From NCBI GenBank assembly GCA_016177735.1, contig JACOUS010000014.1, positions 124,001 to 188,000 on the forward strand: a DNA stretch of 64,000 nucleotides, read 5' to 3'. The DNA is from Ignavibacteriales bacterium. Its GTDB lineage: Bacteria; Bacteroidota; Ignavibacteria; Ignavibacteriales; Melioribacteraceae. Of the stretch, positions 37,689 to 55,295 are shown piece by piece. Each line of letters starts with the position of its first letter. The first letter of the stretch is position 1. Both the position numbers and the translations under genes were made by a program. The notes beneath the pieces are model-generated. The model did no database searches. It saw only the letters and a program-made list of their open reading frames with translations, and had not been told where the DNA came from.

Positions 37689-40385
37689 TTAAGAACGTGC
37701 CGGGTTTGCTTTCTCCGGATTAATACCCAAATCTTTTTGTGCTTTCTTCAAAACATCTGCTTTGAGTTTGCCTTCTTTGAACAACGAATACAAAGTTGCA
37801 TAAACGATATGCTTCGCATCCACTTCAAAGAAATCTCTGAGTGCAGTTCTTCCCTCGCTTCTTCCAAATCCGTAAGTACCGAGCGAATGCAATGTACCCG
37901 GCAGCCATTTGGCGAGTGCATCTTTCATAATTTGTACATAATCCGAAGCCGCCACGAATACGCCGCTTTCACCTTTTGTAATCTCAGCGATGTACGGAAC
38001 TTTCGGTTCTTTATCGGGATGGAACATATTCCATCTCTCGGCTTCTTGTGCATCGAGATGCAGATTTTTATAACTCGTTACGCTCCAAATATCTGCTGCT
38101 ACTTTATAATCTTTTTCAAGAATATCTGCCGCTTTAATTACCTCATTCAAAATTGTTCCGCTTCCTAACAAGTGAGCTTTCAACTTTGCATCTTTTGCAT
38201 TGCCTTTTCCGGAAAGAGTTGAACTGCGGAATTTGTACATTCCTTTCAGTATTCCTTCTTTCACACCTTTGGGCATCGGCGGCTGTGCATAATTTTCATT
38301 CATTATTGTAATGTAATAGAAAACATCTTCCTTCTTTTCGTACATGCGGTAAATGCCATCGCGGATAATTACAGCAAGTTCGTATGCAAATGCGGGATCG
38401 TAGGCAGCAAGATTCGGAACCGGGTATGCAAGCAGATGACTATTGCCGTCTTGATGCTGCAAACCTTCGCCGGCAAGTGTTGTTCTTCCGGCTGTAGCAC
38501 CAAACAAAAATCCCTTACAACGCAAATCACCGGCAGCCCAAACGAGATCACCGACTCTCTGCATTCCGAACATCGAATAAAAAGTAAAGAAAGGAATTGT
38601 GTTGATTCCATGAACTGCGTAAGACGTACCGGCAGAAATGAATGAGGACATCGAACCGGCTTCTGTAATTCCTTCTTCAAGTATTTGCCCGTTCTTCGCT
38701 TCTTTGTAATAAAGCAAACTATCTTTGTCAACCGGTTCGTAAAGTTGACCGGTGTGCGCATAAATTCCAATTTGTCTGAAGAGTGCTTCCATTCCGAAAG
38801 TACGCGCTTCATCGGGAACTATCGGCACAATCAAATGACCGATCTCTTTATCGCGCAAAAGTTTTGCAAGTATGCGGACGTAAACCATCGTAGTGGAAAC
38901 TTCGCGCCCTTCCGTTCCGGCATAAAATTCTTCGAACAATTCTTCCGAAGGAGTTTTTAAAGCCGGTGCCGTAACAACTCTTTTGGGAAGATATCCGCCA
39001 AGTTCTTTTCTTCTTTCTTTCAAATATCTTATTTCGGGAGAATCTTCCGGCGGACGATAGAACGGCGCTTTCACTACTTCTTCATCGCTAATCGGAATTG
39101 AGAAGCGTGTTCTAAATTCTTTCAGTTCATCTTCGTTTAATTTTTTTTGTGAGTGAGTGATGTTCTTCCCTTCGCCGGCTTCGCCGAGCCCGTAACCTTT
39201 TACGGTTTTAGCAAGAATAACAGTTGGTGCGTCTTTGTGTTCAACTGCGTCTTTAAAAGCGGCATAAACTTTTTCGGGATCGTGACCGCCGCGTTTCATT
39301 TTCTCCAATTGCTCGTCTGTATATTTTTCAACAAGCTTCAAAAGTTCGGGGTACTTCCCAAAAAAATGTTCGCGGATATATTTGCCGTCGCGAGTTACAT
39401 AATTTTGGGATTCACCGTCAATACTTTCATTCATTCTTTTAACAAGCATTCCGCTTTTATCTGCATCCAAAAGAGGGTCCCAATCACCACCCCAAACAAC
39501 TTTGATAACATTCCATCCGGCACCGCGGAAAATTGCTTCAAGTTCCTGGATAATATTTCCGTTACCGCGTACCGGTCCATCCAATCTTTGCAAATTGCAG
39601 TTGATAACAAAAATTAAGTTGTCAAGTTTTTCGCGGGCGGCAAGTGTAATTGCACCGAGTGTCTCGGGTTCATCTGTTTCGCCGTCGCCGAGAAATGCCC
39701 AAACTTTTTGATCGCCCGGTTGTTTCAAACTGCGGTCTTCAAGATATCTGCTGAAGCGTGCTTGATAAATTGCTTGTATCGGTCCGAGCCCCATTGATAC
39801 GGTAGGAAATTCCCAAAAATCCGGCATAAGCCACGGATGTGGATACGATGAAAGTCCGCCGCCGGGTTTTAATTCTCTTCTAAAATTTTGGAGTTGTTCT
39901 TTTGTTAATCTACCTTCAAGAAAAGCGCGTGCATACATTCCCGGTGCCGCGTGACCTTGAAAATAAATTATATCGCCGTCGCGGTTGCCGTCTTTGCCGC
40001 GGAAAAAATGATTGAAACCGATCTCGTACAAAGTTGCGGCAGATGCATAAGTTGAAATATGTCCACCTATTCCGTTTTCCTCTTTGTTGGCGCGGACAAC
40101 CATTGCCATTGCGTTCCAGCGTATCAAACTTTTGATGCGGCGTTCAATTTCCCTTCCGCCCGGAAACGGCGGCTGATTTTCTTTGGGTATTGTATTTATG
40201 TGAGGGGTGTTTGCAGTAAATGGAATTTCAACACCGGCTTGCTGTGCATAAGTATCCAGATTATGCAGTAACTCTTTTACTTTTTCGGGTCCGCCGGATT
40301 GAAGCACATACTCAAGCGACTCAAGCCACTCTTTCAGCTCTACTTCTTCAAGTTCTGCCAATCCATTGTTTTTGTTATCGTTCAT
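37689..40385 (-). CDS. aceE: Pyruvate dehydrogenase E1, homodimeric type
   Basis: This 898-residue thiamine-diphosphate enzyme decarboxylates pyruvate and reductively acetylates E2. It is the single-chain homodimeric AceE form, rather than the alpha/beta form. Seen are the N-terminal [20 protein letters not shown] and [19 protein letters not shown], the TPP motif [10 protein letters not shown] ... [14 protein letters not shown] (about residues 230-270), then [10 protein letters not shown], the transketolase-like central domain ([19 protein letters not shown]) and the C-terminal domain ([21 protein letters not shown]). AAGGATTAAGC precedes the ATG. It heads the aceE-aceF operon; lpdA is separate. 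The length is normal. Confidence 0.97.
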
Positions 40386-40628
40386 TTTGCTTAATCCTTG
40401 TTTACGATTATATATAATAAGTTACGATGTATTTTTTTTCTTTAATACGGCACTTAAATTTAAGAAATCCCTCGATTGAATTCTATAATCTGTCCGATAA
40501 AGAACAAACACAAAGATTTCTTACCACGAAAGCACAAGCTTGGTAATCACTTTCCAAACCATACTGAACAATTCTATAAAAGATATTTTCATATCTCTAA
40601 TTTATACGTACAAGGAATGAGGATTACG

Positions 40629-41354
40629 CTATTCAACTATCACCTTTTTGTAGAGGAATGTAAATACTTTGTTATCAACATGTATTGAAAATTTTAGAAG
40701 TTCTGCTCTTTTATCCAACGGGACAAATATTAAACCGCCAACCGAATCGTTTGGATACAAATCTGTAATTCTCATAACTTCATTTTTCCAAAATTCTTTT
40801 TGGGATTTATGCTCTCTCATTGAAGCATCATAATCCATTTCTTCATTAACCTGGTTATCTGCCCACACTGCTACATCGCGCGATACTTGATTAACATCAT
40901 TTTCTTCATTCTTATCAGTTAAATCCACAACCAGACTTACTAATGCAAGGGTTGCATTAAGTCCGGTTAAAACTGAATGTTCTGTTTTTCTATTCTCCAT
41001 ATCTTGATTAATCTTATTGATTTGTTTTTCGGGGTCCAATGCATAAAGGCGTTTGAAATACGGCTCGACTGAAATCAAATCTTTTTTCATTGCATCAACG
41101 TAAAAATCTTTTGGTTCAACCAATATTTTGTTTCCGGACTTATTCTCAAAATGCACATAAAACACAACCTGCTCGCCGCTGTAACTATCTACTTCAACGG
41201 AGACCCCTATTTTATCGTCTTCTTTCGTTACAATTTCTCTTCCTTTATAATAATCTTTCTCCTCAAGGGTTTCTAATTTTACAATTTGTGTTGCACACCC
41301 GTAAATTGTTAACGCTATTAAAACGAAACAAGCTGCAATAATTTTCTTTTTCAT
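40629..41354 (-). CDS. Lipoprotein of unknown function
   Basis: This 241-residue protein has a lipoprotein signal peptide, KKKIIAACFVLIALTIYGC, with the lipobox Cys at 20. The mature part has a beta-rich domain in the first half (GVSVEVDSYSGEQVVFYVHFENKSGNKILVEPKDF) and a helical, charged middle. A second hydrophobic patch (LTGLNATLALVSLVVDLTD) could be a buried helix or a membrane-associated segment. I do not recognise the family. It stands alone, with about 240 bp on the aceE side and 427 bp on the other. Confidence 0.7.
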   Translation of the reverse strand: MKKKIIAACFVLIALTIYGCATQIVKLETLEEKDYYKGREIVTKEDDKIGVSVEVDSYSGEQVVFYVHFENKSGNKILVEPKDFYVDAMKKDLISVEPYFKRLYALDPEKQINKINQDMENRKTEHSVLTGLNATLALVSLVVDLTDKNEENDVNQVSRDVAVWADNQVNEEMDYDASMREHKSQKEFWKNEVMRITDLYPNDSVGGLIFVPLDKRAELLKFSIHVDNKVFTFLYKKVIVE

Positions 41355-41781
41355 TTTGTATTCCTCGAATTATTTCGATCGATTGTCCCAACTTAAGTGC
41401 CAACAGAAAAGACACAAATCGAAATAGATTCTGAGGAAAAGAATAAGGGGTATGCTGCTCTGTAGCAATTTTTAATTATTACGTATAATTTTTTGAACAG
41501 AAACCGGAGAATAAACAATCAACTTTTTTTGCTGCCGTCAGCTCCTTCTGCTGCACGAATATTGTATCCATTTACTTCCACGAACGCAAATTCTCTAAGT
41601 CCGTAGAGATTAATTATCAATTACAACTCAAAATTTAACCGGTTAGTTCAAAAAAAATTTATTTGAGGAACTTGCAGAGCTGCCCTGAGTTATAATCACC
41701 GCTCATCTAAAAAAATTTACAGATGAAAAATTTATTTTACTGCTCGACAAATTAATTCATCAAAAATAATAAGGGGGAATA
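41355..41781. other. 427-bp intergenic region without a recognised gene
   Basis: AT-rich. It holds the divergent promoter space for the lipoprotein and the serine hydrolase. I see a TAACCGGTTA palindrome near 41637-41646 and otherwise no convincing gene, RNA or repeat. Confidence 0.5.
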
Positions 41782-43011
41782 ATGCATAGATCAAATCCAG
41801 GATACACAATCAAAAACTATTTCTTTTCGATTATAACAGCTTTCACTTTTCTCTTATACGGTTGCAGCGACAACGCAACAGAACCAAACACAAACTCTAA
41901 CGAAGAATTAAAAAAAGAATTACAAACACTTTTAGACAGCACGGTAAGTTCCGATAACGCAATTCACAATGCCGTTCTTTTGGTTGATGCACCTGATATT
42001 AATTTCAAATGGAAAGGTGCTTCGGGAATTGCAAATCCCCAAACACAACTTAAAATGGAACCGAACGATCAATTCCGCATTGCGAGTCTCGGCAAAATGA
42101 CTCTTGCAGTATTAACAATGAAATTAATCGAAGAAGACCGGTTCAAATTGGATGACTTCATTTTTCATTATCTGCCCGGCAGCATTATGAACCGGCTGCA
42201 CATCTTTCAAGGGAAAGATTACAGCAATCAAATTACAATTCGGCAATTACTAAACCACACTTCGGGTTTGCCGGATTATATTGAGGACGGAAACAGAGAT
42301 GCAAAAGGCGCAACGGATTTTATGAATTTATTAAAGAGCGAGCCAAATAAATTTTGGAAACCGGAAGAGACAATCGAATATACAAAACAAAATCTACCAC
42401 CACACTTTGCACCGGGGAACGGTTTTCACTACGGCGATACGAATTATCAGTTATTGGGTTTGATCTTACAAAATATTACCGGCAAAAAACTAAACATACT
42501 TTACCGCGAAAAATTATTCACTCCTTTGGGGATGAATCATACTTACATGGAATATTACGATGATCCGATGCCAAGTATTGCCGGACGAAATTTATCACAT
42601 GTCTATTTTGATGCTGACAATTACACCGACTGGATCAGCAACTCTGCAGATTGGGCTGGCGGCGGAATTATCAGTACAACAGAAGATTTAAACCGGTTCA
42701 TGCGCGCTTTTGTTAACAATGAAATTTTTCGGAGCCCGCAAACAAAACAATTGATGCTGAACTGGCAGAACGAAAGCGAAGCCGGATTGTACTACGGGTT
42801 CGGAATTGTACGAATAAATTTCAGTGAATTCGGCTTGACCGAGATAGGGGAAATTTACGGACACGATGGTTTCCCGCAGTCGTTCATGTTTTATGTGCCA
42901 AAACAAAATGTAACAATAGCTGGAACTCTAAATCAAGCTGTAAGCGAAAACAATTTCATGGAGCTTGTTCTTACGGTAATAAGTTTATTGGCGGCATCGG
43001 ATCAGCATTAA
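41782..43011 (+). CDS. Lipid-anchored serine hydrolase, class C beta-lactamase fold
   Basis: This 409-residue protein has a signal peptide ending in the lipobox LLYGC (Cys28). The beta-lactamase/transpeptidase-like domain has the catalytic SxxK tetrad Ser102-Leu-Gly-Lys105 (RIASLGKM), the second motif in HYGDTNYQLLG (Tyr-x-Asp rather than the more usual Tyr-x-Asn), the helix LLNHTSGLPDY and a C-terminal GHDGF (the HxG third motif). Such proteins are usually D-amino peptidases, esterases or penicillin-binding relatives; a true beta-lactamase is less likely. GGGGGAAT precedes the ATG. The next gene is a TonB-dependent receptor 100 bp downstream. Confidence 0.85.
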   Translation: MHRSNPGYTIKNYFFSIITAFTFLLYGCSDNATEPNTNSNEELKKELQTLLDSTVSSDNAIHNAVLLVDAPDINFKWKGASGIANPQTQLKMEPNDQFRIASLGKMTLAVLTMKLIEEDRFKLDDFIFHYLPGSIMNRLHIFQGKDYSNQITIRQLLNHTSGLPDYIEDGNRDAKGATDFMNLLKSEPNKFWKPEETIEYTKQNLPPHFAPGNGFHYGDTNYQLLGLILQNITGKKLNILYREKLFTPLGMNHTYMEYYDDPMPSIAGRNLSHVYFDADNYTDWISNSADWAGGGIISTTEDLNRFMRAFVNNEIFRSPQTKQLMLNWQNESEAGLYYGFGIVRINFSEFGLTEIGEIYGHDGFPQSFMFYVPKQNVTIAGTLNQAVSENNFMELVLTVISLLAASDQH

Positions 43012-43111
43012 TAGCATGTTAAGGCAAACAATAGAACCAACATTCGTCATGTTCGTCATAATGCTTGCTAATCTTAAAGATATATTATCACTATAAAAAA
43101 GAGAGGGGGAC

Positions 43112-45598
43112 TTGAACAAACATAAATTCTTTTTATTGTTCTTAATTATCAGCTTCACAACAACCTTCGCACAGAAAAGCAGAATCAGCGGTAAAGTTGA
43201 AGATGCAACAAGCGGCGAAGCACTTATCGGTGTTAACATTTTAGTAATTGATTCCAGCGGAGTTGGAACCGCAGCCAACGAAGACGGAACATTCGAGCTT
43301 ACACTTCCACACGGAATTTATTCATTAAAGTTCAGCAGTATCGGTTATAGCACTGTGATAAAAACAGATGTTGTAGTAACCGGCGGCAAAGAAACTTTTT
43401 TGAATATCAAACTGACTCCGTCGGCAATTCAAATGAAAGAAGCTTTGGTTCAAGCCGATTATTTTGATAAAGCAGTGCAGATAAATAATCTTGCAACAGT
43501 TGTGTTGAATCCCGAAGAGGTGCGCCGCTCGCCCGGTTCGATGCAAGATTTTCAGAGAATACTTCAAGGCATGGCGGGCGTTTCTTTTTCAAACGATATG
43601 AACAATGAATTAATTGTTCGCGGCGGCTCGCCCGATGAAAATTTGACCGTGCTCGATGAGATGGAACTTCACTCCACAAATCATTACCCTAATGAATATA
43701 ATTCCGGCGGACCGATTAACATGGTTAATGTTGATTTGATTGATCACATCCAATTTTCTACCGGGGGATTCGTTTCAAAATTCGGCGATAAACTTTCTTC
43801 TGTTATGCAGATAACAACGCGCGAAGGAACGAGGAAGAACACTTTCGCAAGCGATATAAATTTATCGATGGCGGGCTTCGGCGGAGTGTTTGAAGGAGGC
43901 ATCAACAACGGCAAAGGTTCGTGGATTTTATCTGCGCGAAAAAGTTATATCAGTTTGATTGCCGGTTCGCTCGGCTTGACTGCTATTCCGTATTACTACG
44001 ATTTGCAATCCAAAATTGTTTACGATCTCTCGCCGGCTCACAAACTTTCTCTTTCGGCAATTTACGGCAATGATAAAATTTTGATCAAAGGAGAAAACAA
44101 ATCCGACATCACAAAAAGTAATCTCACCGATTCGGTCGGCATTTACCGGGTGGATATAAAACAATATCAGTTTGCAGCCGGGTTAACTTTGCGAAGCATC
44201 TGGAATAAAAATTCTTATTCCCTTCTCACGTGGTATTATAATCTTTACAACAACGATTTTAAAATTGATGAAGACTTCACGGAAAGGTCGTACGATGCCA
44301 ATGGAAAAATTATCAACAGTATTTTATTGAGCAAACGCCAAACAGTACTGGATGATCACCACAATGCAAACACTGCATTGAAGGGAGAAATTTTTTGGAA
44401 GCTGGATAACTTGCAAGAATTAAATTTCGGCATATCTGCGGCAACCGGAAATTTTGTTCAGTCGCTTTATCTTGCCGGAGATTCTGCGCGCTACTTTATT
44501 GACGGGCAATGGTCGCCCACAATTGTTGTTCCGGCTTCAAATATCAAATACAACATCAAGCTGTTTGATAACTACAAGTACTACGCATTCATCAACGACA
44601 AGCTGAAATTATTCGATGAACGGTTGATTGTTAATGCCGGCATTCGTTACGATTATTTTTCTTACAGCTTGAAAGGAAATTTTAGTCCGCGAATTTCTGC
44701 ATCCTACTTTATCATTCCTTCCGTTACGAGTTTGAATTTCGCATACGGAGAATATTATCAAGCACAAAATTACCCCACTTACGGCGATAGAGAGAAAAAA
44801 GATATTAACCGGTATCTCGAAAATTCCCACTCGAGACATTTTGTTGTCGGCATCGAACATATTATTGCAGATGGACTGCGCGCAAATTTGGAAGCATACC
44901 AAAAATCGTACGACGATCTGCCGGTCTCCGAGAAGTTTATCAATTTTAACGATAGAACTTTCCGCTCGAACAAAAATTTAAATGCCGGGAAGCAGACTGT
45001 CACCGGCGTTGATTTACAAATTCAGCAGAAACTTGTAAAAGATTATTTCGGAACACTCAGTTACTCGCGTATGTGGACGGATTACAAAGATCCGCGCATC
45101 GGATGGGCGGGAAAGAAAATAATTTCTTCGTACGATTTTCCGCACGTGCTCACTCTTATTTTTGGAAAAAGATTTTCGGGGCTTCGCACTGAACTTGACA
45201 ATACAAATTTCTTGCTGAAATATTTTAGTTACTTGCTTCCGTTTTCAGACGATATGGAAATTAGCGTCCGCTGGCGTTACGCATCCGGCAAACCGTACAC
45301 TGAAAAAATTTGGTCAACCTCCGAACAATATTACGAAGGCAGCACACGATGGAGTAAAGGGAACTGGGTCGAGTCATATGAAATAAACAACAAACGATAC
45401 CCCGATTATCACCGGCTCGATATTGCTTTCAACAGCAGATTTAATTTTGATGCGTGGAGTATCGCAATCTTTCTTTCGATACAAAATTTATACAACAGAA
45501 AGAACGTTGCATTTTATGATTACAACTCCGACGGCAAGCGCGAAACAATTTACCAGTTCGCATTTCTGCCGGTGATCGGTATTGATGTTAGATTTTAA
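43112..45598 (+). CDS. TonB-dependent outer-membrane receptor with carboxypeptidase-like N-terminal domain
   Basis: This 828-residue protein starts with TTG at 43112 preceded by GAGGGGG, and has a signal peptide (NKHKFFLLFLIISFTTTFAQ). A carboxypeptidase-regulatory-like domain (about 22-110: ISGKVEDATSGEALIGVNI ... FSSIGYST) is followed by a plug domain (about 130-240: PEEVRRSPGSMQDFQRILQG, NELIVRGGSPDENLTVLD) and a 22-strand barrel ending in FLPVIGIDVRF. The RxRG-type plug motif and SusC-like N-terminal domain place it among Bacteroidota TonB receptors; no SusD partner follows, so it is not a classic Sus pair. The substrate is unknown. It is followed by the sulfate-operon promoter. Confidence 0.9.
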   Translation: MNKHKFFLLFLIISFTTTFAQKSRISGKVEDATSGEALIGVNILVIDSSGVGTAANEDGTFELTLPHGIYSLKFSSIGYSTVIKTDVVVTGGKETFLNIKLTPSAIQMKEALVQADYFDKAVQINNLATVVLNPEEVRRSPGSMQDFQRILQGMAGVSFSNDMNNELIVRGGSPDENLTVLDEMELHSTNHYPNEYNSGGPINMVNVDLIDHIQFSTGGFVSKFGDKLSSVMQITTREGTRKNTFASDINLSMAGFGGVFEGGINNGKGSWILSARKSYISLIAGSLGLTAIPYYYDLQSKIVYDLSPAHKLSLSAIYGNDKILIKGENKSDITKSNLTDSVGIYRVDIKQYQFAAGLTLRSIWNKNSYSLLTWYYNLYNNDFKIDEDFTERSYDANGKIINSILLSKRQTVLDDHHNANTALKGEIFWKLDNLQELNFGISAATGNFVQSLYLAGDSARYFIDGQWSPTIVVPASNIKYNIKLFDNYKYYAFINDKLKLFDERLIVNAGIRYDYFSYSLKGNFSPRISASYFIIPSVTSLNFAYGEYYQAQNYPTYGDREKKDINRYLENSHSRHFVVGIEHIIADGLRANLEAYQKSYDDLPVSEKFINFNDRTFRSNKNLNAGKQTVTGVDLQIQQKLVKDYFGTLSYSRMWTDYKDPRIGWAGKKIISSYDFPHVLTLIFGKRFSGLRTELDNTNFLLKYFSYLLPFSDDMEISVRWRYASGKPYTEKIWSTSEQYYEGSTRWSKGNWVESYEINNKRYPDYHRLDIAFNSRFNFDAWSIAIFLSIQNLYNRKNVAFYDYNSDGKRETIYQFAFLPVIGIDVRF

Positions 45599-45656
45599 TT
45601 ATCAGTGTCTCGATAACTCGAAGACAAAACGACTAAAGAAATTTTTTAGCGAATAC

Positions 45657-45687
45657 TTGACATGGCATCTTCGTTTATATACCTTTG
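45657..45687 (+). promoter_or_regulatory. Bacteroidota-type sigma-A promoter of the sulfate operon leader
   Basis: TTGACA at 45657-45662, a 17-base spacer, then TACCTTTG at 45680-45687, exactly matching the TAnnTTTG -7 box described for Bacteroidota primary sigma factors. Transcription should begin near 45691-45695, so the leader peptide ATG at 45696 would have almost no 5' untranslated region. Confidence 0.75.
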
Positions 45688-45695
45688 CAACCAAT

Positions 45696-45791
45696 ATGAA
45701 ACAGAACAAAGTAAATAGCGCAATCAATACAATGATGATGGCAATGTGTATGTGTATGAACACTTATCCGCCCGCGGAGGAGATTGCCTAA
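45696..45791 (+). CDS. Leader peptide 1, Met/Cys-rich (31 aa)
   Basis: ATG to TAA encodes 31 residues beginning MKQNKVNSAINT and continuing MMMAMCMCM (residues 13-21) then NTYPPAEEIA. Five codons in nine are Met and two Cys within the cluster. It starts just after a strong promoter and ends 27 bases before an intrinsic terminator, upstream of a complete sulfate-assimilation operon. That is the layout of an attenuator leader peptide whose control codons report on the end products of the pathway, cysteine and methionine. Start support is positional (near-leaderless), as no ribosome-binding site is visible. A longer open frame extends upstream past the promoter and is unlikely to be used. Confidence 0.7.
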   Translation: MKQNKVNSAINTMMMAMCMCMNTYPPAEEIA

Positions 45792-45828
45792 CTTTAACAT
45801 AGAATAAATTTTTTAGACAAGCCCTTCG
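45775..45828 (+). promoter_or_regulatory. Candidate antiterminator pairing
   Basis: CGGAGG (45775-45780), about 17 bases past the Met/Cys cluster, is complementary (with one G-U) to CCTTCG (45823-45828) in the 5' arm of the terminator. A ribosome stalled at the cluster would leave CGGAGG free, while one reaching the stop at 45789 would cover it. The pairing is short, so this is a hypothesis. Confidence 0.4.
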
Positions 45829-45850
45829 AAACACGAAGGGCTTTTTTTTT
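45819..45850 (+). terminator. Intrinsic terminator between the two leader peptides
   Basis: AAGCCCTTCG (45819-45828), loop AAACA, CGAAGGGCTT (45834-45843), followed by an uninterrupted run of T to 45850. It lies within the leader of the sulfate operon, not at the end of a gene, which points to attenuation. Confidence 0.9.
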
Positions 45851-45875
45851 ATACAAGATTCAACGAAAGGCTAAA

Positions 45876-46031
45876 ATGAAAAATCCAATTAACCATAGAG
45901 ATACGGTATCAAGTAGGTTTACATCGCTACGCTATGATGAAATATTTCCGTCTTCACTTACAAAAACTAATCGCACCTCTATTAGCCTTCAATCCATGTC
46001 TTGTCTAATGTACTGTTGTTGCTGTTGCTAA
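45876..46031 (+). CDS. Leader peptide 2, polycysteine C-terminus (51 aa)
   Basis: ATG at 45876, preceded by GAAAGG with 6-base spacing, opens a 51-codon frame that ends MSCLMYCCCCC and TAA: five consecutive cysteine codons (TGT TGT TGC TGT TGC, 46014-46028) directly before the stop. The body is Ser/Thr-rich and has no other recognisable feature. It lies after the leader terminator and 143 bases before the sulfate-binding protein gene. A run of cysteines at the very end of a tiny frame just ahead of sulfur-assimilation genes fits a ribosome-stalling sensor of Cys-tRNA; comparable polycysteine upstream frames are known in mycobacteria. A weak hairpin (46023-46041) has the stop codon in its loop. 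Confidence 0.7.
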   Translation: MKNPINHRDTVSSRFTSLRYDEIFPSSLTKTNRTSISLQSMSCLMYCCCCC

Positions 46032-46090
46032 TCTGCTAACAACTTAATCTTGCTCTACACACTATCTAAAAAAAACAAGTTTAGCAATTC

Positions 46091-46173
46091 AGGTGAACTG
46101 CACCTTAATGGAAAAAGAAACCGGCGAGATTAACAACGATGTATTTTCAACACAGCTTCAACTTTACTTCTAA
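46091..46173 (+). promoter_or_regulatory. Hairpin and 21-codon micro-frame abutting the sbp start
   Basis: AGGTG-AACTG-CACCT (46091-46105) forms a small hairpin. It is followed by an ATG (46108) opening a 21-codon frame, MEKETGEINNDVFSTQLQLYF, whose TAA touches the next gene's ATG (TAAATG). This may couple translation of the operon to upstream ribosome flow, or may be chance. Confidence 0.35.
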
Positions 46174-47247
46174 ATGAGAATTGAAATGAAAAATTTATTC
46201 GGAATGAAATATTTAGCTGCACTAATTGCAACAGTAGTGTTTATAAATGCGGACATCAATAATAATCCGGCAAAAAATAATGAGTCTTCAAACAGTGTCC
46301 AAAGTGAAATAAAACTTTTAAATGTTTCTTATGATCCAACGCGCGAATTATATCAGGCATTCAATGCAAGCTTTGCAAAATACTGGAAAGGGAAAACCGG
46401 ACAGACTGTAACAATCAATCAGTCGCACGGCGGTTCCGGTAAACAAGCACGCGCTTTAATTGACGGACTGGAAGCTGATGTAGTGACGCTCGCTTTGGCA
46501 TACGACATTGATGCAATTGCCGAACATTCGAAATTATTGGCTGCGGATTGGCAGAAACGATTGCCGAACAACAGCACACCTTATACTTCTACAATTGTTT
46601 TTCTTGTACGAAAAGGGAATCCGAAAAAAATTAAAGACTGGAATGATCTGCTGCGCAATGACGTGTCTGTGATAACTCCTAATCCTAAAACTTCCGGCGG
46701 TGCCCGGTGGAATTATCTTGCCGCATGGGGTTGTGCACTCAAAAAATTTAACGGAGACGAAAACAAAGTTAGAAATTTCATTCAGCGTTTATTTAGAAAC
46801 GTACCGGTACTCGATACCGGCGCGCGCGGTTCAACAACAACATTTGTTGAGCGCGGTATCGGCGATATTCTGCTTGCATGGGAAAACGAGGCTCTTCTTG
46901 CCGTCAAAGAATTTGGAGAAAATAAATTTGAAATTGTTGCCCCGTCAATAAGCATACTTGCAGAACCTCCGGTTGCTGTTGTAGATAAAGTTGTTGATAA
47001 ACATAAAACACGTGCCGCAGCTCAGGCTTACCTTGAATTTCTTTATACGGAAGAAGGACAAAAAATAGCGGCAGATAATTTTTACCGTCCGCGTTCGAAA
47101 TCGGTCGCAAAGAAATATGAAAACAAATTTCCAAAAGTGAATTTATTTACAATTGATGAAATCTTCGGCGGATGGAAAAAAGCCCAGAAAAAACATTTTT
47201 CAGACGGCGGCACATTCGATCAGCTTTATGTTCCTTCGGGGAAATAA
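46174..47247 (+). CDS. sbp: Sulfate/thiosulfate-binding periplasmic protein
   Basis: This 357-residue solute-binding protein of the sulfate ABC importer has an N-terminal signal region ([19 protein letters not shown]), then the Sbp/CysP signature: [65 protein letters not shown], and [27 protein letters not shown]. The binding pocket residues lie around SHGGSGKQ and TSGGARW. The ATG at 46174 abuts a micro-frame stop; an in-frame ATG at 46186 is an equally good start. It is the first structural gene of the sulfate operon, controlled by the leader at 45657-46173. Confidence 0.93.
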
Positions 47248-47275
47248 TTATTTACTACAAAGCAATTAATCTATT

Positions 47276-48139
47276 ATGATAGTTAAAAAAATAATATCGA
47301 AACTAACCGATGGTAAAAAGAGCAAAAGAGTAATCCCCGGCTTCGGATTATCGCTCGGCTTTACTATGTTTTATTTAAGCTTGATTGTGATGATCCCGCT
47401 TTCAACACTCTTCTTCAAAACATTCAGCCTTACGTGGGAAGAATTTTATTCTACAATTTCAAGTCCGCGCGTTCTTTCGTCATTCGGTTTAACTTTTGGC
47501 GCTTCATTAACAGCCGGAGTGATTAATGTAATTTTTGGTCCGCTTGTTGCGTGGTCGCTCGTGCGTTATAATTTTCCCGCAAAGAGAATTATTGATGCAC
47601 TTGTTGATTTGCCGTTTGCACTGCCGACAGCTATTGCCGGGATTACACTTACAAGTCTTTATGCCGAGAACGGATGGTTCGGAGAATATTTGCTCGCAAT
47701 CGGAATTAAATCGGCATACACACCAATCGGAATTACAATCGCACTAATTTTTATTGGTCTCCCTTTCGTTGTTCGTACGGTACAACCGGTTCTCGAAGCA
47801 TTGGAAGTTGATATCGAAGAAGCCGCCGCAAGTCTCGGCGCAACAAGATGGCAGATAATAACACGTGTAATACTGCCCGTCATTCGCCCGGCAGTATTAA
47901 CTGGTTTTGTTCTTTCATTTGCACGTGCTCTTGGCGAATACGGTTCTGTTATTTTTATTGCCGGTAACATGCCGATGAAAACGGAAATTTCAACATTGTT
48001 AATTATTACACGGCTTGAACAATATGATTACGCCGGAGCCATTTCAATTGCAGTTACGATGCTCGCGGCATCATTCATACTAATACTAATAATAAATATT
48101 CTGCAGTCACGCATTAATAAGAAAAACCTGATTTCATGA
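47276..48139 (+). CDS. cysT: Sulfate ABC transporter permease CysT (CysU)
   Basis: This 287-residue inner-membrane permease has six hydrophobic segments and the EAA loop AAASLGATRWQIITRVILP, through which it contacts CysA. VDLPFALPTAIAGITL is a family signature. It pairs with CysW to form the channel. It follows sbp by 28 bases, and its stop overlaps the cysW ATG by 4 bases. No strong ribosome-binding site is seen, so translation may be coupled. Confidence 0.94.
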   Translation: MIVKKIISKLTDGKKSKRVIPGFGLSLGFTMFYLSLIVMIPLSTLFFKTFSLTWEEFYSTISSPRVLSSFGLTFGASLTAGVINVIFGPLVAWSLVRYNFPAKRIIDALVDLPFALPTAIAGITLTSLYAENGWFGEYLLAIGIKSAYTPIGITIALIFIGLPFVVRTVQPVLEALEVDIEEAAASLGATRWQIITRVILPVIRPAVLTGFVLSFARALGEYGSVIFIAGNMPMKTEISTLLIITRLEQYDYAGAISIAVTMLAASFILILIINILQSRINKKNLIS

Positions 48140-49050
48140 AAAGAATTAAAGACATAATAAAAAATATTCGTGCGCAAAAAAGCGTTGAGACGAAAAGCCC
48201 AAAACTCACCGAACCTTTTTTTGTTCGATGGCTTGTCATCGGAATTTCAATTCTGTTCATAGGAGTCTTTGTATGCGCTCCTTTATTTTTGGTATTTGTA
48301 AAAGCATTCGAGAAAGGAGCCGCGGCATATTATGCGGCAATCAGCGATGAAGCTTCGTTCTCTGCAATCAAACTGACTTTGATAACCGCAGTTATCGCTG
48401 TTCCGTGCAATATGATTTTTGGTTTAGCCGCTTCATGGCTCATTGCAAAATTCCACTTCAGGGGAAAAAATATTTTAACCACTTTAATCGATCTTCCCTT
48501 CACTGTTTCTCCGGTTGTTTCGGGAATGATATTCGTTATGCTTTTTGGTTTGCAAGGCTGGTTCGGCAGCTGGCTTTACGCCAACGATATTAAAATTATT
48601 TATGCCGTACCCGGCATCGTGCTTGCAACTATATTTGTAACTCTTCCATTTGTTGCGCGCGAATTGATTCCGATAATGCAGATAAACGGAACTGAAGAGG
48701 AACAAGCGGCATTAGTACTCGGCGCCGGTGGATGGAAAACATTTTTCCACGTTACTTTCCCTAATATTAAATGGGCTTTGATTTACGGAGTAATTTTATG
48801 CAATGCCCGTGCAATGGGCGAGTTTGGTGCTGTTTCGGTTGTATCGGGACACATACGCGGTTTAACAAACACAATTCCTCTTCATGCAGAAATTCTTTAC
48901 AACGAATATCAGATGAATGCCGCTTTCGCTGTTGCATCATCACTGACTTTACTTGCAGTAATTACGCTTGCACTCAAAAAATTTGCAGAGATAAAAATTA
49001 AACAAGAATTAGCTGAATCAAATTATATATCGGTAGGTGAAAATATATGA
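48136..49050 (+). CDS. cysW: Sulfate ABC transporter permease CysW
   Basis: This 304-residue inner-membrane partner of CysT has a longer cytoplasmic N-terminus and six membrane segments. [23 protein letters not shown] and the EAA-like loop [20 protein letters not shown] are typical of CysW. It overlaps cysT and cysA by 4 bases each (ATGA-type junctions), showing a translationally coupled transporter block. Confidence 0.94.
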
Positions 49051-50120
49051 GCATTGAAGTTTCCAATCTTACAAAAATATTTAACGGATTTACCGCAGTT
49101 GATGATGTTAATTTCCAAATAGAGACCGGCGAACTTGTTGCTCTTTTAGGACCAAGCGGCTCGGGAAAGAGCACTCTGCTTAGAATGATTGCCGGACTGG
49201 AAATTCCCGATAACGGCACGATCCATTTGACCGGAAAAGAAACAACATCGGCTTCTCCGCGCGACCGTAATGTTGGTTTTGTTTTTCAGCATTATGCGCT
49301 TTTCAAACACATGACGATTTACGATAACATCGCTTTCGGATTAAAAGTAAGAAAGGCGCCCAAACATGAAATCGCTCCGCGTGTTTCCGAACTTTTGGAA
49401 CTTGTTCAATTGCGAGGATTGGAAAAACGATATCCGTCACAAATTTCAGGGGGCCAGCGTCAGCGTGTTGCTGTTGCTCGTGCTCTTGCCGCCCGCCCAA
49501 ATATTTTATTGCTCGATGAACCTTTCGGTGCGCTCGATGCAAAAGTGAGAGAAGAACTTCGTAAATGGATTTTACAGCTTCACGAACAAACACAGGTAAC
49601 CACTCTCTTTGTTACTCACGATCAGCATGAAGCGCTTGAGATTGCTCATAAAGTTTTTGTAATGAATAAAGGTAAAATTGAACAAGAAGGAACTCCGGCA
49701 GAAATTTTTGATCATCCGGCTACTCCGTTCGTTGCAGAGTTTGTTGGTGAAAATAATTTTGTTGAAGCCGAGGTTGTCGAACCGCATACAGTACGCTGGG
49801 GACAGTTTACATTTAGAGTGAACGGTTATCCGACCGGACAAAAAATTAGAATTTATTTCAGACCGAACGATGTTTACGTTAGTTCTGCACCGGAATCCGG
49901 CAGCGTGAATGCAAGAATAAGTAAAACAAGATTTAAAGGAGCGCTGATAGAATTGCATTTGGTAATTGAAACCGACAAGCAAATTATCGCACATGTGCCA
50001 AAGGGCGTTGCTCACTCAAGCGGTTTTACCGAAGGCGCTGAAGTTTTTGTACAAATAACAGAATATCACGCATTCAGAAATTCCGAACATACAATTGATG
50101 AGTCGCTTGTAACAATCTAA
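49047..50120 (+). CDS. cysA: Sulfate ABC transporter ATPase CysA
   Basis: This 357-residue ABC ATPase powers sulfate import: Walker [11 protein letters not shown]-loop [13 protein letters not shown], signature [15 protein letters not shown], Walker [16 protein letters not shown] and the switch His in VTHDQHE. The C-terminal 120 residues form the TOBE regulatory domain ([12 protein letters not shown]). It overlaps cysW by 4 bases. cysH begins 33 bases downstream. Confidence 0.95.
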
Positions 50121-50153
50121 AGAGACAATAACAATTAATAGAAAGAAATAACT

Positions 50154-50891
50154 ATGGGAAAAATAGACGAACTAAATAATCTTTTAGACGGAAAAAGTGC
50201 CGAAGAAATTCTGAAATACTTTTCCGATGAATATGGAAACGAGCTGGCGTTTGCCACGAGCTTCAGCATCGAAGACCAAGTAATAACGCACTTGCTCGTT
50301 TCGTTAAAAAGTCCGGCTAAGATTTTTACACTCGATACGGGAAGGCTTCCGGCTGAAACCTACAAGCTGATAGAAAAAACTATTGATGAGTACGGCAAAA
50401 AAATAGAAATCTATTTCCCGGATTATAAACTGGTTGAAGAGATGGTTCATCAAAAAGGAATTAATCTTTTCTACAACAGCGTGGAAGACAGGAAATACTG
50501 CTGCCATGTGAGAAAGATCGAACCGTTAAAGCGCGCGCTCAAAAACACAAAAGCATGGATTGCCGGTCTCCGCAGAGAACAAGCCGTTACAAGAGGAAAC
50601 ATCAACATTGCCGAGTACGATGAAAATTTTTCAATCATAAAAATAAATCCTCTTTACAATTGGACTGAAGAACAAGTTTGGGATTACATCAGCAAAAACA
50701 ATATTCCTTACAACCAGTTATATAAACAAAATTACAGAAGCATCGGATGTGCACCGTGCACGAGACCGGTTCAAGAAGGCGGCAGTGTTAGAGACGGAAG
50801 ATGGTGGTGGGAAAATCCCGATACAAAAGAATGCGGCTTGCACATAAAGCCCATCCCAAACCCTTCCCAAAGGGAAGGGCTTTTAAATTAA
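50154..50891 (+). CDS. cysH: APS reductase (assimilatory, iron-sulfur type) with a repeat-encoded C-terminal tail
   Basis: This 245-residue enzyme reduces activated sulfate to sulfite. The two cysteine pairs that bind a [4Fe-4S] cluster are present (Cys116-Cys117 in YCCHVRK; Cys199 and Cys202 in GCAPC), pointing to an enzyme that uses adenylyl sulfate directly; this agrees with the absence of an APS kinase gene here. The catalytic end ECGLH has Cys227 and stops at residue 230 in the usual family. Here 15 further residues ([15 protein letters not shown]) are encoded by a palindromic repeat that also supplies the stop codon. cysD follows 20 bases downstream. Confidence 0.94.
50849..50884. repeat. 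Palindromic repeat forming the cysH 3' end
   Basis: GCCCATCCCAAACCCTTC then CCAAAGGGAAGGGC (stem CCCTTCCC/GGGAAGGG) followed by TTTTAAA. The same framework recurs at 60071-60117. It could also act as a partial terminator or mRNA-stability hairpin between cysH and cysD. Confidence 0.75.
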
Positions 50892-50911
50892 ATTTTGATA
50901 GGAATACAACG

Positions 50912-51793
50912 ATGGATTACTTGGATAAATTAGAAGCACACAGCATTTACATTTTGCGCGAAGCGTATAGAGAATTTAAAAACCTTGCAATGCTCTGGTC
51001 GATTGGCAAAGACAGCACTGTACTTTTGTGGCTTGCGAAAAAAGCCTTCTTCGGTCATGTTCCATTTCCGCTTGTTCACATCGATACCGCTTACAAAATC
51101 CCGGAGATGATTGATTACAGAAACAAACTTGCGCTCGAATGGAAAATCAATTTGATCGTCGGGCAGAACAAAACAGCATTGCACAACAAGCAGACTTTTC
51201 CCGACGGCGCAGTTGATAGATTAACTTGCTGTAAACTTCTTAAAACAGAAGCGCTGCGAAACACTCTTTCGGGCGAATGGACACGTTACAAACTTGATCA
51301 CTACACCGGTCAATTCATCGAAGATGAAAACAGAGAACAGTACACCGGTGTAATTGTGGGGGTTCGTGCCGATGAAGAAGGAAGCAGATCGAAGGAAAGA
51401 TATTTTTCTCCGCGCGATAAAAATAATGATTGGGATATCGGCGATCAGCCGCCGGAATTATGGAATCAATTTAAAACTGATTTTGTACCGGGCACACATG
51501 TACGCGTTCACCCTCTGCTCGACTGGACAGAATTAAATATTTGGGAATATCTCGATAGAGAAAACATTCCGATAATTCCTCTTTACTTCGACAGCGGGAA
51601 CGGAACACGTTACCGTTCGCTCGGATGCTATCCGTGCACAAAACCGGTTGAATCGAATGCGAAGAATGTGAAAGAAATTATTGGTGAGCTTAAAAGCGGA
51701 AAGTTTGCAAACATTGCCGAACGCGCCGGACGCGAACAAGATAAAGAAGGCGGCGGAACTCTCGAAGAACTTCGAAGAGACGGTTACATGTAA
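50912..51793 (+). CDS. cysD: ATP sulfurylase small subunit CysD
   Basis: This 293-residue PP-loop enzyme adenylates sulfate to APS together with the GTPase CysN. The PP-loop is [17 protein letters not shown]; further family segments are [53 protein letters not shown] and [16 protein letters not shown]. The ATG at 50912 ([13 protein letters not shown]) is preceded by GATAGGAA and gives the usual N-terminus; the open frame extends upstream through cysH but has no support. The size is normal. Confidence 0.96.
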
Positions 51794-51929
51794 TTTAAAA
51801 TCTTACTCTTGTTCTTAATCTTGATCGAAGAAAAGCAAGAGTTTAACTGCCGCTTATCCGGCATTAGTTTGACGGATATTTTTGGCGAATATGAACAAAA
51901 AAAATGTAAAAATATTTTTTAGGACTTTG

Positions 51930-53288
51930 ATGAAAGAAAGAATGAACATAGTAATTGTGGGACACGTTGACCACGGCAAGAGTACTCTTGTTGGAAGATT
52001 ACTTGCAGATACAAATTCACTTCCGCAAGGCAAGCTTGAACAAGTAAAAAGAACTTGTGAAATAAATTCCAAGCCGTTCGAATATGCATTTCTTTTGGAT
52101 GCACTGATTGACGAACAAGCACAGGGAATTACAATCGACACAGCGAGAATTTTTTTCAAATCTCCGAAACGCGAGTACATTATAATTGATGCGCCGGGGC
52201 ATATCGAGTTTTTGAAAAATATGATCAGCGGAGCCGCACGCGCCGAAGCCGCAATTCTTTTGATTGATGCGCACGAGGGCATTGCTGAAAATTCCAAACG
52301 CCATGCTTACATGCTTTCAATGCTCGGCATCAAACAAGTGGTTGTCGCGGTAAACAAAATGGACCTCGTTAATTATGATGAAGCGGTCTTCAACTCGATA
52401 CAAAAAGATTACACTCAATTCTTAAATGAGATCGATGTTAAACCAAATGCATTTGTACCGTTGGCGGCACTGCACGGAATAAACATTACAACCGGCTCAA
52501 ATACAATCGGATGGTACAACGGTCCTTCTATTCTCGAATTGATAGACACGTTCCGAAAAGAGAAAGAAGAGGATCAAAATAATTTTAGAATGTTTGTTCA
52601 AGGAGTGTACAAATTCACAGCCGACGGAGACGATAGAAGAATTATTGCCGGCACAGTTAACTCCGGGAAAATTAACGTTGGCGATGAAATAATTTTTCTT
52701 CCGTCGGGAAAAACATCGACAGTCAAATCAATCGAAATTTACGAAAAGGATTCGCCTTCAACTGCCGGAAGCGAAGAGGCAATCGGCATAACACTTTCTA
52801 CACAAGTTTATGTAAAACATTCCGAGTTGATTGCGAGAAACGATGAGACTCTTCCACACACAACAGATAGCTTCAAAGCAAATATTTTTTGGATGGGGAA
52901 AAAGCCTTTGCAGTACAACAAAAAGTATAAACTGAAAATCGGGACAAAGAAAGTTGATCTATTTCTTGAAAATATCGAAAGCGTTCTCGATGCTTCGTGT
53001 TTGGAAAAATCGAACAGCCGAAAAGAGATTCACCGGCACGAAGTTGCTCACTGCATTTTCAAAACCACAAGTCCGTTCAGCTTCGATCTTATTGATGAAA
53101 TAAAAACAACAAGCAGATTCGTAATTGTTGATGGCTACGATATTGCCGGCGGTGGAATTATAGTTGAAGCGCTTGAGCAGACAAATACTTCGAACGATGA
53201 AAAAGGTTCGCCCGATTTAGCGGCATTTGAAATCGAACTGAAAAATTTAATCGTAAAATATTTCCCGCACTGGGATATCAATATTTAA
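51930..53288 (+). CDS. cysN: ATP sulfurylase GTPase subunit CysN (no APS kinase fusion)
   Basis: This EF-Tu-like GTPase (452 residues) drives sulfate adenylation. G1 GHVDHGKST (11-19), G2 region [12 protein letters not shown]3 DAPGHIEF, G4 NKMD and a G5-like PLAALHG are followed by two beta-barrel domains. I choose the ATG at 51930, which has AGGA seven bases upstream; earlier in-frame ATGs at 51882 and 51891 would add an unconserved tail. The protein ends about where non-fused CysN does, so the APS kinase (CysC) domain found in CysNC is absent, consistent with an APS-reducing CysH. Confidence 0.94.
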
Positions 53289-53301
53289 AAAGGAGTTTAA
53301 C

Positions 53302-55212
53302 TTGGCAGAAAAAATTACATACGATGTAGATATCGGAACACTTGAGTATGCATTGAGCGAAAGAGATTTATGCACCGATGAATTGAACAAGCGAGATAAC
53401 ACATTACTCGGCGGCGACAAACTAAAAAGAGAACTCGAAGATTTATCGAGACCCGATGTTGATAAAGATCTTCACATAAATTTAAAACCGAACGGAATCT
53501 ATATTCAATGGGACCGCGTTGCAGTTAAACAAGGAATCAAAGATTGGTTTTTCATGGTGCGCGTTCCGTTTTGGGGAGGAGGAGATATTTCTCCGGACGA
53601 ATGGCTGAAGATCAGCGAACTTGCAGAAAAATATTCCCGCGATGACGACGGCTCTCCTTCAATTAGATTGACAACGCGTCAAGCAATTCAATTTCATCGA
53701 ATAAAGAAAAACGATCTCATTCCGCTTGTTCGGGAATTGATCGAACTCGGCAGAACAATTTTAAATGCTTGCGGCGACAACGTTAGAAACACTACTGCCA
53801 GTCCGGTCAAGTCTGGCATTTTTGATGCGAATGCACTCGCTCAAAAAATCGGAGAATATTTTCAACTGCCGCTCGAAGAGCATTACAAAATATTTTATCC
53901 GGAATTTTCTTCAATAGAAAAAGAAGATTCGCATGAAAACAATTCCGAAAAATTTCAATACGATCCGCTCGGGCTTCCGCGTAAATTAAAAATCGGAATT
54001 GGCGGATATTTTGTTGACCAAGAAACACAACAAGAAATTCGATGCAACGCACCCGATATTTTAACAAATGATATTGCAATCGCACCGATAGTTACAAATA
54101 AAAAAGTTAACGGCTGGCAAGTTTATATAGGCGGTTCGCTCGGACAGAAAAACAGAAAAGTTACATTCCCTTCGCTCGCCGGTGCGCTCGGAATTTTTGA
54201 ATCGGAAAAAGATTTGATGAAAGGACTCGACTCAATCGTTTATGTGCAGCAGCAGATCGGCGATAGAAAAAACCGGCATTGGTCGCGGCTCAAAAATATT
54301 CTTTACAAAAAAGGATTGGAAATAACCGGCAAGAAAATCGAAGATGTTATTTACTGCGAAGAAGAGTTTGAAAAAATCAGAGACGCCGGAATAAAATGGT
54401 TCGGTGATGAAATAAAAAAACTCGGAGTTGATTTCAAACTTCCGGTCGAATTCGATCTTGGAAAAGTTTTTCGTCATCACGGGTGGATTAAACAGCATGA
54501 CGGCAAATACAGCTACGGCTTATGGATCGAAAACGGAAGAATAAAAGATTCGAGTCACATCGGTTCATTAAAAAAATTGGTTGATGAAATTGTTCTGCAA
54601 GTTCAGCCGAATATTCGACTCACACCTTTTCAAGATTTGCTGTTGACGGATATTCCCGAATCAAAGCGAACACTTTTGGAAAACATACTTGCCCGGTTTA
54701 ATTACGGAAATTATTCTGCGCTTAGAACGAACTCGCTTGCGTGCGTTGGACTTGCAACATGCCCGCTTGCCGTTACCGAATCGGAAAAATTTTTGAACCC
54801 GCTGATTACGGAATTGGAACAAGACGGATTTGGAAATCTTGAAGGTGTTAACATCGGCATTAGCGGATGCGAACGGCATTGCTCGCGCAATGTACGATTC
54901 GATATTTCTCTCGAAGGAAAGACCGACGGCGAGTATCAGCTTAAACTTTTATTCGGCGAACAGGATAAAAATCATCTCGCGGCTGATTTGATTGACGGTG
55001 AAAAAAAATATCTGCGAAGAATACCGCAGAACCTCGCAGCATCGGTTATCCGTGTGCTGATAAAAAATTACATCGAGAACAAACTGCCGGAAGAAAAAAG
55101 TATTTCGCTTTTTCATCAAAGAATCGGAATGGCAAAAGTGATCGAGATTTTAAAAACAAACGAAGTAACAAAAAATTTAATGCAGTCAGCATACGAGTTG
55201 TATGCAGCATAA
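53302..55212 (+). CDS. Sulfite reductase, sirohaem/[4Fe-4S] type
   Basis: This 636-residue hemoprotein of the nitrite/sulfite reductase family converts sulfite to sulfide with six electrons. It has the twofold repeat of ferredoxin-like and catalytic domains: PSIRLTTRQAIQFH and ACGDNVRNTTASP in the first half, and the cluster and sirohaem ligands Cys481, Cys487 (ACVGLATCPLAV), Cys523 and Cys527 (GCERHC) in the second. Operon context favours sulfite over nitrite as substrate. It starts with TTG at 53302 preceded by AAGGAG. The electron donor is probably ferredoxin, because no flavoprotein subunit gene is present. The sirohaem is presumably made by the next gene. Confidence 0.93.
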   Translation: MAEKITYDVDIGTLEYALSERDLCTDELNKRDNTLLGGDKLKRELEDLSRPDVDKDLHINLKPNGIYIQWDRVAVKQGIKDWFFMVRVPFWGGGDISPDEWLKISELAEKYSRDDDGSPSIRLTTRQAIQFHRIKKNDLIPLVRELIELGRTILNACGDNVRNTTASPVKSGIFDANALAQKIGEYFQLPLEEHYKIFYPEFSSIEKEDSHENNSEKFQYDPLGLPRKLKIGIGGYFVDQETQQEIRCNAPDILTNDIAIAPIVTNKKVNGWQVYIGGSLGQKNRKVTFPSLAGALGIFESEKDLMKGLDSIVYVQQQIGDRKNRHWSRLKNILYKKGLEITGKKIEDVIYCEEEFEKIRDAGIKWFGDEIKKLGVDFKLPVEFDLGKVFRHHGWIKQHDGKYSYGLWIENGRIKDSSHIGSLKKLVDEIVLQVQPNIRLTPFQDLLLTDIPESKRTLLENILARFNYGNYSALRTNSLACVGLATCPLAVTESEKFLNPLITELEQDGFGNLEGVNIGISGCERHCSRNVRFDISLEGKTDGEYQLKLLFGEQDKNHLAADLIDGEKKYLRRIPQNLAASVIRVLIKNYIENKLPEEKSISLFHQRIGMAKVIEILKTNEVTKNLMQSAYELYAA

Positions 55213-55295
55213 TTTTTCTTTGCACCTTTGCGAAAAAAATCTTTTCACGCAAGGACGCAAGGGATACGCCAAGTGTGCAATGAAAGGCAAAAAAG
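55213..55295. repeat. Intergenic repeat words before the sirohaem synthase gene
   Basis: CTTTGCACCTTTGCG and CACGCAAGGACGCAAGGG are words of the same kind as those at 17030-17085. There is no gene and no terminator, so co-transcription with the sulfite reductase is likely. Confidence 0.5.

Follow-up and report, generated by a model that had tools for sequence, protein, structure and literature searches.

A putative Met/Cys leader-peptide attenuator and a second, cysteine-ending leader ORF upstream of a sulfate-assimilation operon in an Ignavibacteriales bacterium

The stretch of DNA analysed here (the window, 64,000 nucleotides) comes from the genome of an Ignavibacteriales bacterium, labelled G000; other G labels denote the relatives' genomes that were compared with it. 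It contains a short reading frame rich in Met and Cys codons, with a terminator behind it and a sulfate-assimilation operon further on. The question raised by this locus is whether the frame and the terminator form an attenuator for the operon, and if so which amino acids it would sense and whether it acts alone.

The leader region and the operon behind it

The features of the leader region and the operon genes described here are on the forward strand. The region begins with a promoter, recognised from its sequence (45657-45687), which consists of TTGACA (45657-45662), a spacer of 17 nt and TACCTTTG (45680-45687), the latter being of the TAnnTTTG class of -7 box described for Bacteroides (PMC7366714). 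Sources cited here by PMC number were available in part, and what is said of them is limited to those parts. The promoter ends 8 nt before the start of the first leader frame, ORF1, and it is therefore likely, by inference, that ORF1 has a near-leaderless start. ORF1 (45696-45791) has 31 codons and encodes MKQNKVNSAINTMMMAMCMCMNTYPPAEEIA. Its control codons, MMMAMCMCM (codons 13-21, 45732-45758), were identified from the sequence and by a scan of ribosome positions; the frame as a whole is dominated by Met, with six Met besides the start and two Cys. An intrinsic terminator, AAGCCCTTCG-AAACA-CGAAGGGCTT plus a T tail (45819-45850), is supported by sequence, pairing and folding. Its stem (45819-45843) has 10 bp and a 5-nt loop, its Ts reach 45850, and it lies 27 nt from the ORF1 stop codon, so that the frame and terminator described in the earlier note hold at these positions. 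The pairing proposed there is also present: the segment CGGAGG (45775-45780), which ends 8 nt before the ORF1 stop codon and has a similar position in relatives, is complementary, with one G-U, to CCTTCG (45823-45828) in the 5' arm of the terminator.

Both the promoter and a second leader frame, ORF2, are missing from the earlier note. ORF2 (45876-46031, 51 codons) starts 32 nt past the terminator stem, within the inferred transcript, and its product ends MSCLMYCCCCC. The five Cys codons (46014-46028) stand directly 5' of the TAA and are the sole instance in the window of a run of five before a stop; they are preceded by a C-rich, G-poor stretch (45950-46019), recognised from base composition, which is a possible Rho site. 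Clusters of this kind are rare in the window. Among its 706 small ATG-started ORFs (8-70 aa, both strands), only three have a Met/Cys cluster score of at least 8: ORF1 (11.8, within a longer frame), ORF2 (13.3), and an ORF in another frame inside sbp (8.6). Of 200 shuffled versions of the 3' segment of the leader (45765-45850), 195 fold less well than the native sequence (z -2.75).

The downstream genes were identified by profile searches from sbp through cysG. Their order is sbp-cysT-cysW-cysA-cysH-cysD-cysN-sulfite reductase-cysG. The first gene, sbp, encodes a sulfate-binding protein (46186-47247; NF008022 and TIGR00971 above cut-off) and is followed by cysT, cysW and cysA for the sulfate ABC transporter (47276-50120; TIGR02139, TIGR02140 and TIGR00968 above cut-off), by cysH, an APS/PAPS reductase, and cysD (50154-51793; TIGR02055 and NF003587 above cut-off), and by cysN, the sulfite reductase hemoprotein and cysG (51927-56591). 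The sulfite reductase is over the Pfam cut-offs and under those of the NCBIfam sulfite reductase models.

The first gene of the operon varies, being sbp in G000, a DUF2061 gene in G017 (Pfam) and, by eye, DUF2061-like ORFs at the other family loci; the leader has therefore been kept while its cargo changed. In the window, the sulfate ABC transporter genes (46186-50120) occupy the place of the DUF2061 gene in relatives. Relatives at about 70% identity are found in other families of the phylum and at up to 76% in other phyla, which points to these genes having been acquired.

Among 58 near genomes, sbp was found in G000 only, and sbp relatives were dropped as a comparison set. Up to 1 kb upstream was scanned at 80 named sbp loci of other phyla, a few of which have little upstream DNA; a loose Cys/Met score flagged seven of the 80, none of them resembling the window leader. 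Within the phylum, another family (f26, sbp loci L002-L030) has a short Cys-cluster ORF and then a terminator before sbp at 11 of the 27 loci with enough upstream sequence. The terminator starts GGCCGGTTCCTG in seven of these 11, and this is possibly an independent Cys attenuator.

Conservation and pairing of the first element

CysD is encoded in 16 of 79 family genomes, at 18 loci, of which 12 are assessable in being linked to cysH and having sufficient upstream sequence. At all 12, ORF1 carries a Cys/Met cluster, an intrinsic terminator is present, and the region of the ORF1 stop contains a complementary segment; this is the conservation that the earlier note had proposed looking for. The distance from the first control Cys codon to the antiterminator segment is 19-35 nt, and 24-27 nt at nine of the loci. 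A -7 box (TAnnTTTG, also TAnnTTCG, read by eye) stands upstream of ORF1 at all 12, and TTGAC upstream of that at 11. This evidence, which is from sequence only, goes against a transcript starting only beyond 45850, which would have refuted the attenuator. One further cysH-linked locus (G027:C306) could not be assessed, the contig being cut 292 nt before cysH. The remaining five cysD loci have no Cys/Met-rich leader in an identical scan; in four, which by eye are sulfation clusters, cysD is preceded by a kinase-like gene and a membrane-type ORF, and at the fifth (G028) the upstream DNA amounts to only 604 nt. It should be said that the relatives are not independent of one another, and that leader starts were chosen by hand.

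The 6-bp antiterminator of G000 is not significant by itself (p=0.09, 1000 dinucleotide shuffles), and it is the comparison with relatives that carries the case for an antiterminator. In G007, G527 and G528 the complementarity goes beyond the shared CCCTTC core and into the loop (TCTGTGAAGG with CCTTCACAGA), and in G017 the match between segment and terminator is 13 bp; the pairing of 10-13 bp in these four genomes has p of about 0.001 in each (1000 dinucleotide shuffles). In G526, the terminator arm is altered to GCCTCC, which by eye is matched by GGAGGC in ORF1. When terminators were swapped, leaders paired more strongly with their own than with terminators from other genera (Wilcoxon p=0.0015, 20 genus-by-operon means). 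This test used 45 of 47 hand-listed units, the second G002 leader and G525 having no terminator by the criteria applied, and the single cysK unit was grouped with cys. It was near chance for the leaders beside a SAM riboswitch (0.36-0.69), and in the wrong direction (0.95) for the G526 cys duplex picked by the script, which is a different one from that read by eye.

The G000 leader was also folded with a masked ribosome. As long as the 3' arm has not been made, stalling at codons 13-22 is predicted to leave the antiterminator accessible for the most part (0.05-0.99 for a footprint of 12 nt, 0.66-0.99 for one of 15 nt), and a ribosome anywhere from codon 25 to the stop makes it inaccessible. 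At codons 17 and 20, competing folds lower its probability to 0.05 and 0.33, respectively, when the downstream footprint is 12 nt. One stall codon was tried for each unit, and the value was low in three of 45 (G000 0.05, G362 0.09, G532 0.20). The zeros obtained with the ribosome at the stop follow from the masking itself. Once the G000 hairpin is complete, the terminator prevails at every ribosome position (P 0.95-0.96), and the fold computation gave no switching at equilibrium for the complete leader; the switch must therefore be kinetic. That the antiterminator excludes the terminator and would be covered by a ribosome at the stop holds by computation only.

Taken together, we put the probability that ORF1 works with its terminator as a ribosome-mediated transcription attenuator at roughly 0.85. 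The conservation at 12 of 12 loci and the segment that tracks changes in the terminator are observed, and to this extent the sequence supports the attenuator first proposed; stalling, antitermination and a response to tRNA charging are inferred, there being no RNA or ribosome data. The mechanism would be as follows. A shortage of charged tRNA-Met or tRNA-Cys would make the ribosome stall in MMMAMCMCM, so that CGGAGG could pair with the 5' arm of the terminator, and RNA polymerase would read through. When both are plentiful, the ribosome would reach the ORF1 stop and cover CGGAGG, the hairpin would form, and transcription would end near 45850. On this reading ORF1 is like the trp/his-type attenuators in having control codons, a ribosome-covered antiterminator, an intrinsic terminator and a biosynthetic operon, and unlike them in combining two sulfur amino acids in one leader and in being one of two serial elements.

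It remains possible that in G000 this attenuator senses mainly Met, its two Cys codons being incidental and Cys being sensed by ORF2 only. The Met-dominated ORF1 of G000 and that of the nearest locus, G519 (four Met and a lone Cys), fit such a reading, and the leaders before met genes in G000 look similar. In addition, no match to the SAM riboswitch (RF00162) was found in G000, and Met would therefore need another sensor. Against this, Cys is the constant feature of ORF1 across the 12 cys loci, with a count of 1-5, while Met drops to one in four of them. We consider this reading, of a sensor mainly for Met, to have appreciable weight, if less than an even chance. It is very improbable that the terminator at 45819 merely ends the upstream gene, with ORF1 a chance frame, for although a long ORF on the same strand (stop 45598, receptor-like by eye) ends 220 nt before the stem, and terminators of similar sequence are found at ordinary gene ends in these genomes, a promoter motif and ORF1 intervene, both conserved at 12 of 12 loci, and the ORF1 segment tracks the terminator.

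The second element: a poly-Cys ORF or a SAM riboswitch

Behind the terminator, nine of the 12 loci have an ORF2 of 37-51 codons that finishes with 3-5 Cys codons and TAA. ORF2 was sought by its terminal Cys run, and the presence of the run in nine out of nine depends on that. At the other three (G016, G506, G027) the place of ORF2 is taken by a SAM (S-box) riboswitch, RF00162, above the Rfam gathering score and followed by a terminator of its own. The second position at the cys operons is filled by a poly-Cys ORF or by a SAM riboswitch, according to lineage. RF00162 matches are found in 31 of the 79 family genomes. RF00162 is absent among the Rfam matches at E<=5 in 40000-56000 of the window; those obtained (sroB, Phe_leader, sau-31 and others) were sub-threshold and taken as chance. 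A search with the poly-Cys pattern (TGY)4-TRR proved unusable, matching in 131 of 149 genomes of the class; of 25 such loci that were read with the stop following, 22 have no start codon in the Cys frame.

Behind ORF2, the nine loci showed no intrinsic terminator. The 70 nt leading to the Cys run have much C and little G, ranking in the top 0.6% of same-strand downstream windows in G000 and in the top 0-1.8% across all nine loci, and Rho is encoded in G000. We think it probable that ORF2 acts as a Cys sensor: transcripts that read through the first terminator would meet it as a second checkpoint, its terminal Cys run responding to tRNA-Cys. If so, access for Rho, and not an intrinsic terminator, would be its most likely means of control. 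The evidence for Rho consists of the base composition of ORF2 and the presence of a Rho gene, and this part of the proposal is tentative, a little short of an even bet.

A slightly weaker, still credible, case can be made for ORF2 as a translational attenuator, in which a ribosome stalled at the Cys codons would open up the first gene's start region. Mycobacterial leaders with a poly-Cys end near the stop are reported to regulate downstream translation in this way (PMC1262725, PMC9031893), and the lack of a detected intrinsic terminator after ORF2 at the nine loci agrees with it. On the other hand, pairing between the Cys codons and the start region of the next gene showed no consistency across the nine folds: the summed pairing probability is 0.00-0.55 in seven, and 1.46 and 2.61 in the near-identical G007 and G531. 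The distance between the two regions is 74-154 nt, and the C-rich, G-poor stretch suits Rho better. The folds also disagreed on whether ORF2 works by hiding an RBS. That the ORF2 product has a function of its own, as a small, Cys-rich protein of the metal- or redox-binding kind, is hardly credible, since, although five adjacent cysteines could bind metal and ORF2 is the longer of the two ORFs, its likeness across distant loci is limited to the last residues (by eye), it stands directly before the cys operon at nine loci, and a SAM riboswitch replaces it at three.

Preferring ORF2 as a Cys sensor, we note its resemblance to the polycysteine leaders of mycobacteria and other actinobacteria, which have a Cys run by the stop, lie upstream of cys genes and have no intrinsic terminator in the accounts available. 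Terminator-less leaders of this kind go back to a 2005 prediction for Mycobacterium (PMC1262725), with tests following later (Canestrari 2020, as cited in PMC9031893, PMC9094748 and PMC13236596). ORF2 differs from the mycobacterial leaders in being internal, behind a separate terminator-type attenuator, and not leaderless. It may work like them, yet it is not placed in their type, because it lacks the leaderless start. A single upstream ORF with the end SRMTCCC before its stop is found at L172 and L173 (G072 and G067, family f21), separated by 63-98 nt from the gene that opens an operon with sbp and cysD, an arrangement that resembles ORF2 without the first attenuator.

Related leaders and the signals they may read

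A covariance model, R1, was trained on the 12 cys leaders only and run on the 79 family genomes. At E<=0.001, all 15 family matches outside the training set have metY 52-365 nt downstream (metY was recognised by motif, and in G000 by NCBIfam TIGR01326). The earlier note's single Met/Cys attenuator needs amending: a Met/Cys leader is present, but it is the first of two elements, belongs to a set that includes leaders at metY and cysK, and is Met-dominated in G000. In G000 itself (G000:C21:46825-47107, L268, minus strand), two serial Met-rich leaders, each with a terminator and ending RGMMCMMMYFFTKG and NIMMCMCMMMRMSAHKRGGPV respectively before the stop, precede metY-aspartate kinase-metX. Two leaders are listed for 12 of the 15 metY-leader genomes that have no SAM riboswitch behind; in G362 the second was found later. 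In seven genomes one metY leader is followed by a SAM riboswitch. G086 has a CCC leader at cysK.

In other families of the order, seven of eight R1 matches at E<=0.002 are upstream of metY (three), cysK (three) or a NirA-type gene (one), the calls being by NCBIfam for one metY, one cysK and the NirA-type gene and by likeness for the remainder. The three cysK leaders, which come from one such family (L312, L314, L315), each have a plain CCC cluster, and in two of them the leader end, GGAGGAxATTGCC-stop, resembles the end of ORF1 in the window. The NirA-type nitrite/sulfite reductase gene (L313, G592:C56) is preceded by two serial Cys/Met-rich short ORFs. The eighth match (L316, G595:C15:73213-73321) has a leader, MIQTIINMCCMQMGCYKTSAERFV, with the end NMCCMQMGCYKTSAERFV before the stop, and a terminator; no sulfur gene was recognised behind this Cys/Met leader, an unidentified, exported-looking long ORF lying 498 nt on. 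Among weaker R1 matches, 15 of 19 inspected places were ordinary gene-end terminators or similar, including G015:C101 (E 0.0016) and one in G000 itself (G000:C5), and four were read as leaders (L276, L277 and L285 at metY, and L303). L303 (G001:C63, at a contig edge) is a Cys-rich leader ending NTCCSYFCMCMHRACEEDL before the stop, with a differing terminator (AAAGGTCTTTC...) that is matched by GGAAGACCTTT in the ORF; it precedes an O-succinylhomoserine sulfhydrylase-like gene truncated by the end of the contig.

The codon content was compared over the 47 hand-listed units. L303, L309-L316 and the later-found G362 leader are in no statistic, and a loose scan gave 49 units, a few of them outside sulfur genes or on the opposite strand. 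The Cys share of Cys plus Met is 0.46 for cys operons without a SAM riboswitch (nine units) and 0.63 with one (three); for met operons it is 0.14 without (27 units) and 0.38 with (seven). The difference between cys and met leaders is significant both by unit (p=2e-5) and by genus (p=0.022), but the greater Cys content of met leaders beside a SAM riboswitch (p=0.009 by unit) fails by genus (p=0.14). Leader codons thus track the pathway, being Met-rich at metY, CCC at cysK and mixed at the cys operons. The simplest reading of these sequences is that each leader would sense the product of its own operon, and that the cys operon of G000 would be gated serially, being checked for Met and Cys first and then for Cys.

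Several known systems share parts of this arrangement. By 2010, leader peptides were known only in Proteobacteria and Actinobacteria, to which Firmicutes were then added (PMC2965389). The uORFC-8-2 motif has tandem Cys codons and then an intrinsic terminator, and ribosome-mediated attenuation has been proposed for it (PMC8632094); as described there, it is a single element, with Cys only, upstream of cysS in Rhodobacterales, whereas the downstream gene in the window is sbp. The metL leader of Streptomyces lividans mixes Cys and Met, with the end CMCRRMCAF (PMC8079986); it is upstream of metNIQ, leaderless and without a typical intrinsic terminator, and the available text mentions no tandem partner. 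The mgtCBR operon of Salmonella has two serial leader ORFs with different signals (PMC3641672), but these are ATP and proline, and the operon is for a Mg2+ transporter, unlike the sulfur leaders here. At three of the 12 cys loci the SAM riboswitch is the second element, and at several metY loci it comes behind a leader. Leader-peptide-like 5' regions are reported upstream of amino-acid biosynthesis operons in a flavobacterial transcriptome (PMC9723704), and are mentioned in a Bacteroides one (PMC7366714), in both cases without the present details in the parts available. Nothing in the literature searched combines a Met/Cys leader serially with either a SAM riboswitch or a poly-Cys ORF, and none of it brings Ignavibacteria, attenuation and leader peptides together. 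The remark that no attenuator sensing both Met and Cys was described in this lineage thus stands for the literature searched, the mixed peptide of Streptomyces (PMC8079986) being from elsewhere.

As far as that literature goes, the locus adds a lineage in which sulfur control by leader peptides was undescribed. It allows the signal at each operon to be predicted concretely from the identity of the leader codons, and it offers a possible case of Rho termination controlled by Cys. Because sensors of two different chemistries share one position in related operons, the question of swapping between riboswitch and leader peptide becomes testable. More broadly, the sulfur metabolism of the order may be controlled by leader-peptide attenuators that make up a modular regulon. 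The codons chosen (Met, Cys or both) would set the signal for each operon, stacking of modules would gate an operon by two end products, and a poly-Cys ORF with Rho, a second leader-terminator and a SAM riboswitch would replace one another as the second module; at present we regard the odds on this sequence-based proposal as even. If it is true, nature would here provide a series in which one pathway is read by translation-based as well as by ligand-based sensors.
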